From a virus: 32,197 nt of DNA. The stretch is from the IMG/VR virus record IMGVR_UViG_3300034198_006241, positions 1-32,197 of that record; one strand, written 5' to 3'. The position numbers and the translations under genes were made by a program. Of the stretch, positions 19,987 to 29,066 are shown one piece after another. Position 1 is the first letter of the stretch, and each line of letters opens with the position of its first letter. Under the pieces are notes generated by a model. It had not been told where the DNA came from. It saw only the letters and a list, made by a program, of their open reading frames with translations, and did no database searches.

Positions 19987-22302
19987 TTAATAAATATGCT
20001 TATTATAGTTTTTGCCAGTTGTCGGGCGAATAATTGAGCCCCGCTGCCATGCACTAAACTCTGAACCGAATGCTGAACAAATCATATAGTCATTGCTGTC
20101 CGAACAATTATGCACAAGTATTCCATTTGCAAAATACTCATGTACATCCTGAACCATTATATCATAAACCTGCCTTTTGTTTTCTGTATACTCTTGCGTT
20201 AATCCTGTTTTTACATCTTGCTGAACAGTATTTTGCCTCTCTAGTTGAAACCGTTTCAAATCCTTTGCCGCATGCATTACAGTTTTGCTTTCTTCGCTTA
20301 CTTTCCATGATTTTATGCATATGTTGTTTATGCCAATCCCTGCCAACTGAAGATTTATGCCATTCTTTAGCTTTTTCTCTTGCCTTATCGTTAAGTATTG
20401 ATGTTTTATATTGTTTAACTTCGTCAGATAGTTCGTTATAATGCATTCTAAGGTGTTCAGAACCCTTGACGCATTCAAGATTTTCGATATTGTTGTTAAG
20501 CGGATTGCCATCAACGTGGTGAATATGATATCCTTTAGGTATTTCACCTTTGGTAATAGTCCATAAATATCTGTGATATCTTTCTTTTTTTCGTACCCCG
20601 TTAATTTTAACCCATCCCGAAAAATATACTTTATCGGAGCGTCTTGGACTATCTTGGTTTCTAACAAATCGGTATCCGTTAAATTCAATACATTCAATTT
20701 CTTGTTGCATATTTTATTTTCTTCAAATATACAAAAAGTATGCGAACCTATCAAATGCCCTATGTTTTTAAATCCTTGTTTTTTTGTCCAGAATTTATGG
20801 CCTGGGGTGCATGTTATTTTTTTATCCCCTATACTATACGTATTGACATTTTTATATCCATTATCAAAAACTTTTAATACTGGCTTATATCCCTGTCTGG
20901 TTAAAACCAAATCCCCTATTTGTATTTCGTCTATTCTTTTTCCTCCTGTCATTGTAGTTATCATTATTTCACCTACAAAACAATGTCCATATTTCTCATA
21001 GCTTACTCCTGTATCTTGGTTTTTAGTTTTGATTTTTGCTTTAGTGCCGTCACTTGCCATTTTCAAAAACATATAATCCGCTATTGTGTTAGTGCATTTA
21101 TCACTTATCACAAAGTCTAATCCTTGAGCACGTTCGCTGAATACGGCATTAATAAACTGTCCTCTGGTATGTACTGGTGGTGCTACCTTCTGATATTTCA
21201 TTTGAGGTCTAAACTCTGCCAATTCTTGTCCTATTATTCTAAAATCATTATACCCCTTTTCAGTTCTTGTATCTTCATGCAATCCCGCAGGGTCGCCATA
21301 AATAAATACCCCCGCTTGATGCCCCCTATATCTTTTACAAAATTCCCGACATGCGAGGTCGGTACGATTATTAGGCGTAGGTAAACATATCTCATCTATC
21401 TGCGTTGCTATCTTGCCTGTTATTTGCCAAATGCATATCGTTACGTACGGGTTTACGTTAAAGTCAAATGTAACATGTAGGACCATAGATGGGTTATATC
21501 TGCAATCGGCTTGTGGCAATACATTCCTTGCTCTATCAAATCCCGAATAAAAATTACCATCGGTAGTACGATTACCCCACATTCCCAATACATAAATAGT
21601 GTAATAGTATGGGTTAGTGCGCTGAAGGTCTAATAATTGCGCCTTAAAGCTATCAGGTAGCCACTTATTATCCTTGTAGGTGCTTTGGTGTACGGTATAG
21701 GATGTTTCAAACGTCTTGCCGTCTCCGATGTCTATTATTGCTTTGTCGCTAAATGTGCCGTCTGGTTTATCCTTAAAAAACCTTTGCCAGAACCAATGCT
21801 CTGTATAGTCCCCGTCTACTTCGGGGTTAATGGTAAATATTTCCTGTAAATATGATGCCTTTTGTGTACGTATTGATGTGGTTATCGTTATAAAATCTCC
21901 TTCGTCTGGTATTTCTTCCTCATACCATACTCCTGTGGGGTCTTTTATTGATTTTAGTTTCTTAGGCTCATCACCACCACGACAAATGAATTTATTACCG
22001 TTAATGCAGCGTATCTCTAATGGGCTGACGTTGAATATAAATAAGTCCTGCAACCCCCATTCATACACAATATCTTTAATAGTTTGAAACTGGCTATCCT
22101 TGATTGTGTTGTATGTTTTACGATACAGAATAAAACGAAAATAGGGTTCAGTCAAACATCTTTTGATAAGTTTCTTAGCTGAAAAAACAGATTTAGAGCT
22201 ACCCCTACCCCCGTAACAAATCAAATATCTGTCCGTGTTTTTTATTAACGGTACAAATGATTCATTAATTAATTTATTCCATTCTGGTAATATTACTTTC
22301 AT
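19987..22302 (-). CDS. terL: Terminase large subunit precursor, interrupted by an intein
   Basis: The precursor has 771 residues; removing the intein (441-732) leaves a 479-residue terminase. The ATPase domain shows Walker A GGRGSSKS (31-38), Walker B GVWYEEE (124-130) and a TINP coupling motif (about 157-160). The nuclease domain has HVTFDFNVNP (Asp280), YGDPAG (Asp337) and, after splicing, a third acidic motif joined as YGH-CSDSNDY. Inteins typically sit in such conserved motifs. TerL pumps DNA into the head with TerS; it needs protein splicing to be functional. It directly overlaps the TerS stop by one base. Confidence 0.9.
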   Translation of the reverse strand: MKVILPEWNKLINESFVPLIKNTDRYLICYGGRGSSKSVFSAKKLIKRCLTEPYFRFILYRKTYNTIKDSQFQTIKDIVYEWGLQDLFIFNVSPLEIRCINGNKFICRGGDEPKKLKSIKDPTGVWYEEEIPDEGDFITITTSIRTQKASYLQEIFTINPEVDGDYTEHWFWQRFFKDKPDGTFSDKAIIDIGDGKTFETSYTVHQSTYKDNKWLPDSFKAQLLDLQRTNPYYYTIYVLGMWGNRTTDGNFYSGFDRARNVLPQADCRYNPSMVLHVTFDFNVNPYVTICIWQITGKIATQIDEICLPTPNNRTDLACREFCKRYRGHQAGVFIYGDPAGLHEDTRTEKGYNDFRIIGQELAEFRPQMKYQKVAPPVHTRGQFINAVFSERAQGLDFVISDKCTNTIADYMFLKMASDGTKAKIKTKNQDTGVSYEKYGHCFVGEIMITTMTGGKRIDEIQIGDLVLTRQGYKPVLKVFDNGYKNVNTYSIGDKKITCTPGHKFWTKKQGFKNIGHLIGSHTFCIFEENKICNKKLNVLNLTDTDLLETKIVQDAPIKYIFRDGLKLTGYEKKKDITDIYGLLPKVKYLKDIIFTTLMAIRLTTISKILNASRVLNTLECIITNYLTKLNNIKHQYLTIRQEKKLKNGINLQLAGIGINNICIKSWKVSEESKTVMHAAKDLKRFQLERQNTVQQDVKTGLTQEYTENKRQVYDIMVQDVHEYFANGILVHNCSDSNDYMICSAFGSEFSAWQRGSIIRPTTGKNYNKHIY
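20162..20710 (-). CDS. HNH homing endonuclease nested out of frame inside the intein
   Basis: The 182-residue product, read one base off the terL/intein frame, has an HNH_3-type core: RYHRYLWTITKGEIPKG (44-60), then YHIHHVDGNPLNNNIENLEC (61-80) with the His-His, Asp67, Asn and NLE residues. A C-terminal zinc finger has Cys144, Cys147, Cys162 and Cys166 (CNACG...YCSARC). It ends right at splicing block F. Its start ATG lies 14 nt after a -7 box and has a -33 box at proper spacing. It should cut intein-less terL and spread the intein. Confidence 0.85.
   Translation of the reverse strand: MQQEIECIEFNGYRFVRNQDSPRRSDKVYFSGWVKINGVRKKERYHRYLWTITKGEIPKGYHIHHVDGNPLNNNIENLECVKGSEHLRMHYNELSDEVKQYKTSILNDKAREKAKEWHKSSVGRDWHKQHMHKIMESKRRKQNCNACGKGFETVSTREAKYCSARCKNRINARVYRKQKAGL
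20724..20755 (-). promoter_or_regulatory. Bacteroidota promoter inside the intein driving the HNH gene
   Basis: On the minus strand TTTG (20755-20752), 20 nt, and TATATTTG (20731-20724) reproduce the Bacteroidota promoter consensus exactly. The HNH ATG follows 14 nt after the -7 box. The same bases encode FCIFEENK in the intein frame. Confidence 0.6.
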
Positions 22303-22632: not shown

Positions 22633-22944
22633 TTATTCTAATCCGTTGAATGCCTTTAATGGATAAAACACCAAAGAGTTTCTGTAACCACCCGTAGCCG
22701 TAGGGACTATTGGCGTTACCCCGTGTACGTTTCTCCATGCAGGATATACTAGCATAGAATTATTGCAACTATCCATTGTTGCTCCGTAATCAGGACCCGT
22801 TGTATTTCCTCCTGTTGCATTTTGTTTTTCCAACATTTGTGGAAATTCCTGAATAGATTTTACGAGCTTCTGAAATTTATCATCCTTGATGACTCTTGGA
22901 TTGCGTGGGTTAGGCTTAACCTGCGATGTTTTAACTGTTATCAT
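22633..22944 (-). CDS. Chimeric ParB-N-like / dioxygenase-C-like small protein
   Basis: Residues 1-38 (VKPNPRNPRVIKDDKFQKL, then VKSIQEFPQML) match the start of ParB/Sulfiredoxin-type proteins common in phage head-gene neighbourhoods. The ParB catalytic GG-x-R region expected next is absent. Residues 55-103 (NNSMLVYPAWRNVHGVTPI and GGYRNSLVFYPL) resemble the C-terminal half of 2-oxoglutarate/Fe(II) dioxygenases, with the distal His and the Arg that binds 2-oxoglutarate; the HxD half is missing. It looks like a deletion fusion of two genes, hence likely not an active enzyme. It is first in the late operon. Confidence 0.45.
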   Translation of the reverse strand: MITVKTSQVKPNPRNPRVIKDDKFQKLVKSIQEFPQMLEKQNATGGNTTGPDYGATMDSCNNSMLVYPAWRNVHGVTPIVPTATGGYRNSLVFYPLKAFNGLE

Positions 22945-26798: not shown

Positions 26799-29066
26799 TT
26801 ATAAATATTTATTAACCGTATCCGCTACGGGTGTAAATTCATTTTGTGTGATGTTATTCGATATATCTTCAGTATGTAAATCAAATAACTTATACTGATT
26901 TTTATCTAACTCTACGCCCTGAATATTCTTACAGGCTACATCATAGTAACTCTCTTTTAATTCAGTTCCTATCGCCTTTCTATTCATCTTTATAGCCTGA
27001 TATAATTCGCTACCAACACCAGCAAATGGGGTGAATACCGTATCTCCTTCATTACTCCACAATGTAATACATCGTTCAATGGTATCTAACTGCAAAGGGC
27101 ATATATGCTTCTCGTCTTTATCACCACGCCCATCACGCCCGTTTAAGGTCTTACCATAGTCAATATCATACCATACTGGGGAGGCGTATTTTTGCCATGT
27201 ATCTACATCTATACCACATTTTACAGGGTGTTCGTGTTCGCCATCTTTACGGAATACTAAAACATAATCAGGCAGTCCAACCCTTGACATGGCAGCATCT
27301 TTTTTAACTTGCTTATGTAGTAATCCTAATGCTTTAGTGCGTTGCATTTCTACTACTGGATTTTTCCATATAGTAACACGGCTATGATAAATAAAACCTG
27401 CACTTTCAAATGCCTCACGTATCATGTTAGAAAAATCCCGTAGCCCGATATATCCTTCTTTACCTTTCTGTATTGGCAAATCCATACAATGTACTGCTAC
27501 ATTTCTACCACTCCACATAATACGGTATAGTTCTTTTACAAGGTGCTTAAAAGCAAATAAGAACTCATTATAATCCTTACTATTACCCATGTCCGCAAGT
27601 TCATCAGAATAGGTGTATAGCTCGGCAAATGGAGGGCTAAATACAGATAGCCCTACACTATTATCAGGTATCTTACTTATCAATTGCACACAATCCCCAC
27701 GCATAAGCCATGCGTTATCTGTTTTTAATTCCTGATAGCCTGTATCTATTTTTACGGTTGCTGTAAATTGTTCATTCATAGATTGCTGCATAGATTTTTG
27801 CATAACATCAAATTGTTTCTGCTTGTTATTAATGGAATTGATTACGTTCTGCATGGTATCGGTTGTAATGAGATATATATTAACCTCATTCTTTTGCCCG
27901 AAGCGATAACTACGCCTTATGGATTGATACAAAGCCTCAAAGCTGAAATCAAGGCTTGCAAATACCTGATTATGGCAATTCTGATAATTCAACCCAAACT
28001 GAGCAATCTTTGACTTTGTTATTAGTACTCTAAATTCATTATTAGCAAATCCTAATAGCTTAGACTTTTTATATTCGGGGGTGTCATTACCTTTTACCTC
28101 AATAGCATCAGGTATTAACCGTTTCAGTTCTTCGCCTTCCTCATTCTGCTTTACCCATATGATAAAGTTTTCTTTGCTTGCATTAACTATTTTAGCTACC
28201 TCTGATAACCGTTCTACTTTAGTAATGCGCAGTTCCTGATTAAAGTTTGTAGCCGAAATAGCTACGTTATTAAATAACTCCCCGTTATCACGCTTAGCTG
28301 TAATTATAGGCTTCTCTATATAGTTAAGGCTTGGTAGGTTGTACCCTTCATCTGCAAATCCAATATCAGAAGGTTTTGATAGCATGATAGCCCAACTACT
28401 CACCCATTGCCAAAATATCTTTTCACTATGCCCTTTTAATCTCCATTTAGCCGTTTCGCCCCCGTCATGTACAAAGTACATAGCTAACATTTCATTGCGG
28501 CTAATGATGTTTAAAAATTCCGCATGATTACCTAACTCCATAGCATCATTAGGGCTTGGTGTTGCTGTACAAGCTAACTTATACGGGGTATCTTTAAAAC
28601 TTTCTATTATTAGTTCTTTAGTAGCCCCTTCAAAGTTCTTTAGTATGCTGCTTTCGTCTAAAACAATCCCTGCGAAATCATCACAATTAATATTATCTAA
28701 TTGCTCATAGTTGGTAATGTATATAGCTGATGGTGTTTCGTGCATAGCATACATTTCAGGTAATAACTCTATTACTTCAATACCAAACTTTTTACCCTCT
28801 TGTATGGTTTGCCCTGATACTGCTAATGGTGCTAATATCAATACGGGTTTATCAGTATGCTTTACAACCTCGTTAGCCCATGATAGCTGCATTAATGTTT
28901 TACCTAAGCCACAATCAGCGAATATGGCATACCTACCTTTTTTAAGTGCTTTGCGTACTATGTATTCCTGAAACGGGAATAGGTTAGTATTTAATTCACC
29001 TACGGTAAACCCACTATCTATCATGCGTTGTTTCTTACTCTCTAAAAATTGCAAATAATCGTTCAT
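26799..29066 (-). CDS. SNF2-type helicase fused to a DNA methyltransferase
   Basis: Residues 1-420 are a SNF2/DEAD-like helicase: DCGLGKT (51-57), a LDESSILKN box (136-144), TATPSPND, and the YQSIRRSYRFGQ motif VI (380-391). Residues 450-755 are a beta-class amino-methyltransferase: SPPF (477-480) near the start and FAGVGSELYQ (681-690) near the end, binding S-adenosylmethionine. The target base cannot be told. Such fusions may modify the phage DNA to evade restriction. It ends 20 nt before the SSB-like gene. Confidence 0.85.
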   Translation of the reverse strand: MNDYLQFLESKKQRMIDSGFTVGELNTNLFPFQEYIVRKALKKGRYAIFADCGLGKTLMQLSWANEVVKHTDKPVLILAPLAVSGQTIQEGKKFGIEVIELLPEMYAMHETPSAIYITNYEQLDNINCDDFAGIVLDESSILKNFEGATKELIIESFKDTPYKLACTATPSPNDAMELGNHAEFLNIISRNEMLAMYFVHDGGETAKWRLKGHSEKIFWQWVSSWAIMLSKPSDIGFADEGYNLPSLNYIEKPIITAKRDNGELFNNVAISATNFNQELRITKVERLSEVAKIVNASKENFIIWVKQNEEGEELKRLIPDAIEVKGNDTPEYKKSKLLGFANNEFRVLITKSKIAQFGLNYQNCHNQVFASLDFSFEALYQSIRRSYRFGQKNEVNIYLITTDTMQNVINSINNKQKQFDVMQKSMQQSMNEQFTATVKIDTGYQELKTDNAWLMRGDCVQLISKIPDNSVGLSVFSPPFAELYTYSDELADMGNSKDYNEFLFAFKHLVKELYRIMWSGRNVAVHCMDLPIQKGKEGYIGLRDFSNMIREAFESAGFIYHSRVTIWKNPVVEMQRTKALGLLHKQVKKDAAMSRVGLPDYVLVFRKDGEHEHPVKCGIDVDTWQKYASPVWYDIDYGKTLNGRDGRGDKDEKHICPLQLDTIERCITLWSNEGDTVFTPFAGVGSELYQAIKMNRKAIGTELKESYYDVACKNIQGVELDKNQYKLFDLHTEDISNNITQNEFTPVADTVNKYL

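Follow-up and report, generated by a model that had tools for sequence, protein, structure and literature searches.

The terL locus examined here raises the question of how an intein with no endonuclease in its own reading frame could be mobile, and whether an HNH gene lying out of frame within it could serve that purpose. The window, that is, the whole stretch of 32,197 nucleotides that was analyzed, comes from a tailed phage, probably with a host among the Bacteroidota.

A TerL intein with a second gene inside it

The open reading frame (ORF) for TerL runs from 22302 to 19987 on the minus strand, where all the features of the locus lie, and comprises 771 codons with no internal stop. Residues 1–440 (20983..22302) make up the N-extein, which matches Terminase_3 over residues 25–240 in a domain search (E 1e-44), and the C-extein (19987..20106) begins CSDSNDY, where relatives without an intein read TSDSNDY. 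Between them lies the intein, Cys441–Asn732 (20107..20982; 876 nt, 292 aa), which is recognized by PF14890 and by TIGR01443 (intein C-terminus), the Intein_splicing match covering TerL residues 464–732 at E 1e-7, slightly below the Pfam cut-off. It begins CFVGE, ends LVHN and is followed by Cys+1, and it carries the residues of a class 1 intein, namely Cys/Ser at position 1, TxxH in block B, a C-terminal Asn, and Cys/Ser/Thr at +1; in an alignment of 52 inteins, C1, T59, H62, and N292 are invariant. AlphaFold (three rows from annotated records left out) predicts a Hint fold with pLDDT above 90 at both intein ends, and structural searches return inteins in the PDB with E values down to 1e-6, the gp41-1 intein being the best. 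The Hint splicing domain is thus, in the model, built from the two ends of the intein, with a middle that is partly below pLDDT 60 and partly a long helix. Domain and profile searches of the window intein gave no endonuclease match in its own frame, in agreement with the frame analysis and with the preliminary description, which had assigned the intein to Cys441–Asn732 and denied it an endonuclease of its own. The element is therefore not a canonical endonuclease-containing intein with an in-frame endonuclease domain and, given that the host gene is one ORF rather than two, not a split intein either.

The overlapped middle does hold, in a different frame, a gene for an HNH_3 endonuclease of 182 aa (20162..20710, minus strand; HNH_3 E 2e-15), which is complete, as had been claimed. 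The gene starts 272 nt inside the intein, which puts it out of frame, and its TGA stop sits within the Val-Tyr-Asp of intein block F. The product matches phrog_15471 (E 3e-26) and has an HHVDGNPLNNN motif and a zinc finger, C144/C147/C162/C166, in which C144, C147, and C166 are invariant and C162 is present in at least 90% of 36 homologues. Its structure is predicted with a pLDDT of 95.8 (AlphaFold), and I-HmuI is its best match both by sequence (5e-5) and by fold in the PDB (1.6e-3), such that motif and fold alike are those of an HNH homing endonuclease.

Two other ORFs of the window, both on the minus strand, are worth recording. One of 103 aa (22633–22944) has, by eye, a ParB-type start and then changes character, and is possibly truncated or frame-shifted; the other, of 755 aa (26799–29066), has a DEAD/ResIII helicase domain together with an N6_N4 DNA methylase domain.

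Recurrence of the nested layout

Relatives of the HNH protein were gathered by a scan with the single protein, a scan with the 36-homologue alignment, and from annotated phages; the genome contig search with the single HNH protein gave only two weak matches. There are 130 strong members of the family (HNH profile E <1e-30). At 104 loci, including the window, a TerL intein contains the HNH gene in a frame other than its own; this is the relative frame of the window in 99 and the other one in 5. One open ORF with both intein ends recognized by profiles is found at 99 of the 104 (94 in the window's frame and the five in the other), and in the remaining 5 the ORF is of this kind too, but only one of the intein ends was recognized. 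A scan with the intein alignment, which was ranked by whole-intein similarity with the overlap included and hence favors similar elements, brought in 77 loci not fetched before, some of them on contigs of the HNH-based set, and all 77 have the HNH gene nested in the window's relative frame. None of them lacks the HNH frame, has an in-frame HNH fusion, or has a stop in the intein frame, the three observations that the preliminary description had named as evidence against it.

In all, 157 distinct nested HNH sequences fall into 62 clusters at 50% identity. The N-exteins of the nested loci match Terminase_6N in 44 of 88 cases and Terminase_3 in 39 of 88, and annotated carriers include Tetrasphaera phage TJE1, Acinetobacter phage Highwayman, and Rhodobacteraceae phage LS06-2018-MD07. 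The same HNH family occurs in two further settings. Six loci (L081, L083, L115, L131, L137, and L151) have a split TerL intein with the HNH gene between the halves, and in L131 and L115 at least, the C-half has its own start behind a Shine–Dalgarno-like stretch. Another 20 members are free-standing, mostly beside an intein-less terL. In 17 of these the gene follows a TerL-like ORF at a distance of up to 200 nt, in two it precedes one, and in the last no TerL is visible in the stretch. At least 17 changes are required to explain the four arrangements on the HNH tree, in which many branches are weak.

Several loci depart from the common pattern. The five in the other relative frame (L020, L089, L093, L126, and L135), where far more stops are expected, need only one change on the tree, with weak support. 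Three in-frame HNH inteins (L044, L046, and L060) came from the HNH search, and the family profile matches only their HNH core. Much longer TerL N-exteins, with further intein-like inserts beside the nested-HNH intein, are seen in L042 (1405–4647) and L011 (2101–4686), and LAGLIDADG_3 matches occur in 3 of 88 N-exteins.

Two reading frames in one stretch of DNA

Under synonymous recoding of the window HNH gene, 10.3 stops are expected in the intein frame, where none is seen, and not one of 1000 recodings left that frame open, which bears out the statement that the intein frame stays open across the whole HNH gene. Likewise, each of the 94 main-frame loci has no intein-frame stop against 4.6 expected on average, and the five other-frame loci have none against 16. 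Free-standing HNH relatives mostly have about the expected number in the corresponding frame, for example 12 versus 12.5 in L146, although there are counter-cases: the free-standing L138 is likewise open in that frame, and several others have only few stops. A chance ORF was considered for the HNH gene and rejected on the recoding test, the relatives with empty sites, and the more than 100 loci of the same layout.

The same recoding result bears on whether the insertion is an intein at all. Group I introns of phages often carry HNH genes, and the closest solved structure to the window HNH, I-HmuI, is that of an intron enzyme; the insertion could then be an intron carrying an HNH gene, its intein frame open by accident. 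Such an accident would have to produce a frame free of the expected stops along with complete splicing motifs and a Hint fold, while no Rfam match is found in the window and none even at E 1 in the region. An intron, of group I or any other kind, is thus rejected as having next to no probability.

Although both frames are open, they do not appear to be conserved alike. Substitutions in the overlap, counted over 16 pairs, number 564, 457, and 973 at HNH codon positions 1, 2, and 3, and the amino-acid identity of the HNH exceeds that of the intein frame in 16 of 16 pairs; given that the pairs share members, this is a trend rather than a formal test. We take these comparisons to mean that it is the HNH protein that is conserved in the overlap, the intein frame there being chiefly kept free of stops; the AlphaFold results for the HNH and for the middle of the intein agree with this. 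Of the original proposal that both frames are maintained at once, the part concerning the HNH protein stands, and the overlapped intein frame seems to be maintained mainly in the sense of remaining open.

The excess of third-position substitutions in the HNH frame also speaks to the idea that the HNH is a non-working passenger in a region held open only by the need to read through it. Expression and activity of the window HNH are predicted, which leaves this idea some room, but the catalytic and zinc residues are invariant or nearly so among homologues, and pairs of filled and empty alleles (below) imply recent movement of relatives. A passenger is accordingly considered unlikely.

Probable expression of the nested gene

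In the window, a TAA in the HNH frame (20714..20716, minus strand) lies 6 nt upstream of the HNH ATG, and across 99 nested loci the median distance from such a stop to the conserved start downstream is 4 codons, leaving little room for a fusion made by frameshifting. Ribosomal frameshifting from TerL into the HNH frame, which would give an IntN–HNH fusion, is suggested by A-rich stretches upstream of the HNH start and by the location of both frames on the same strand. Apart from the stops, however, nested HNH starts are enriched in Shine–Dalgarno sequences, scored as a match of at least 5 nt at 3–12 nt, which precede 27 of 99 of them versus 19 of 365 control ATGs taken in the same frame in N-exteins (Fisher P 5e-9), and the family also exists as free-standing genes. 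Frameshifting is therefore rejected as very improbable. No Shine–Dalgarno sequence was seen ahead of the start in the window itself. The view that the HNH is a free, separately translated protein nested in the TerL intein is nevertheless well supported by the comparative evidence.

The preliminary description also gave the gene a promoter of its own. The sequence TTTG-N20-TATATTTG at 20724..20755 (minus strand), which has the form of a Bacteroidota promoter, is a perfect motif match, and the −7 motif recurs at a similar position in L002, L007, and L070. A promoter here is plausible, but the site is only suggestive, because a window would be expected to contain about 0.7 such matches and because the conserved intein codons for TFCIF or similar fall within the −7 motif in part.

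Empty sites and movement of the element

With the N-extein alone as the query, tblastn found 131 TerL relatives, of which the best 80 were kept; the whole TerL precursor as the query found none. At the insertion site, 79 of these best 80 are uninterrupted, so intein-less alleles of the host gene exist. In the nearest relatives (L162, L163, and L169), which are about 79% identical, the site is YEKYGH-TSDSNDY, against YEKYGH-[intein]-CSDSNDY in the window, and the sole filled relative among the 80, L178, has a nested HNH at the same site.

The best filled and empty pairs concern relatives of the element rather than the window's own copy, and one of them concerns the split form. Phages Highwayman (filled) and Acba_21 (empty) are 99.6% identical in the aligned flanks and differ by an element of 981 nt; the C-side flank beside the site is locally replaced in Highwayman, with Leu+1 of Acba_21 changed to Cys. 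Lactobacillus phages CL2 and CL1 are 99.9% identical, CL2 carrying a 1015-nt split-intein version where TerL of CL1 is intein-less, and their nearby flanks differ only in the first 6 nt past the site, with Gly changed to Cys. Such pairs, with locally replaced flanks, are consistent with cleavage of an element-free allele, and the near-identity of phages with empty sites argues that the element moves as a unit. Comparisons among carriers point in the same direction: identities for L018 and L019 are 96% in the HNH, 94% in IntN, and 77% in the TerL N-extein, and for L034 and L109 they are 70%, 75%, and 32%, respectively, values which indicate that the element passes as a unit between divergent TerLs.

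As to annotation, the TerL of CL2 (KR905067; L151) is given as 455–1954, which is only the N-half and IntN, and IntC with the TerL C-end (2487–2771) lies unannotated after the HNH gene, so that trans-splicing is apparently required to make CL2 TerL.

There are phage HNH proteins that assist terminases, according to work cited in PMC11855218, and 17 of the 20 strong free-standing members lie, as noted, just downstream of a TerL-like ORF, such that the HNH might be a DNA-packaging helper of the terminase instead of a homing enzyme. A helper would be hard to reconcile with the intein-less state of 79 of the best 80 of 131 TerL relatives, nearly all 80 of which are also without an HNH of this family in the fetched stretch, and with phages 99.6–99.9% identical in the region that differ by the presence of the element. 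A packaging role is consequently judged highly improbable.

Relation to known systems

HNH homing endonucleases encoded by introns are free proteins encoded within a mobile intervening sequence. I-HmuI and its kind share the HNH fold with the window protein, but their host element is a ribozyme, and hence there is no second protein frame to keep open. Split inteins whose halves flank an endonuclease gene are reportedly the 'fractured genes' of Dassa et al. in 2009. The window is similar in that the middle of its intein holds an endonuclease gene that stands on its own, its closest solved intein is gp41-1, and six relatives, including that of Lactobacillus phage CL2, are split with this HNH family; the window intein differs in being continuous, because the intein frame reads through the HNH gene.

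In the ShiLan domain, an HNH gene is hidden out of frame in an insertion within a methylase; the insertion, without splicing domains, was judged not to be an intein and is believed to be retained in the protein product (Arsenault, Gosselin and Gogarten 2025, PMC11855218). The two cases have in common the out-of-frame HNH gene in an insertion, the open frame of the host gene, and a sporadic, homing-like distribution, whereas the window insertion has splicing domains and is a clear intein in TerL. Among mycobacteriophage TerL inteins, five tested splice and two cut intein-less terL, the cutters having in-frame LAGLIDADG domains, and the ATPase domain is where these inteins are inserted (Kelley et al. 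2016, PMC5050341); the inteins of the present set lie near the TerL C-terminus and have an out-of-frame HNH.

Hidden out-of-frame HNH genes (ShiLan) and endonuclease genes between split halves are thus already known, and what may be new is an out-of-frame endonuclease within an intein, of which no description was found in full-text searches covering mainly open-access journal papers. The claim is limited by that scope and by two works on non-canonical inteins that the ShiLan paper cites in connection with overlapping frames (PMC11855218); a preprint on non-canonical actinophage inteins may overlap with the finding.

A probable two-part homing element in terL

It is very probable that terL here harbors a two-part homing element, a spliced intein together with a free nested HNH that cuts intein-less terL and is copied by repair. 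This reading draws on sequence comparisons, namely the architecture and its recurrence, the stop-free intein frame, conservation in the HNH frame, intact splicing and nuclease residues, empty alleles, and co-transfer; from these we infer splicing, HNH translation, and cleavage of empty sites. TerL would be translated as a single precursor, from which the Hint domain, formed by both intein ends, would excise itself and restore TerL. In its own frame, the middle of the intein, the position at which other inteins carry an in-frame endonuclease, forms a linker, and in another frame it holds a complete HNH gene. Made from its own start as a free protein, the HNH would most likely cut intein-less terL at a conserved motif, and repair would copy the whole intein-plus-HNH unit, with the Cys codon at +1, into the cut allele. 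The HNH lineage also has free-standing members next to terL and members between the halves of split inteins, so the probable origin of the nested form is the entry into a terL intein of an HNH gene associated with terL, a direction of change that we likewise infer.

Inteins are usually described as one polypeptide with splicing and endonuclease domains. In this element, the two functions appear to be coded by the same DNA in different frames, and the nuclease could therefore be made without the precursor. The nested layout recurs and so represents a repeated way of building a mobile element, not a one-off. Annotation can hide nested endonucleases of this kind, as the records of TJE1, Highwayman, and MD07 list TerL only. 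Both Terminase_3 and Terminase_6 proteins are represented in the set, and some of its cultured phages are nearly identical in the region except for the element, so that homing, dual coding, and split-intein origin can be tested directly. Somewhat short of an even chance is given to the wider proposition that mobile inteins are commonly built by overprinting, that this terL-associated HNH family passes between free-standing, split-intein, and nested out-of-frame states, and that the nested state offers a route between continuous and naturally split inteins.
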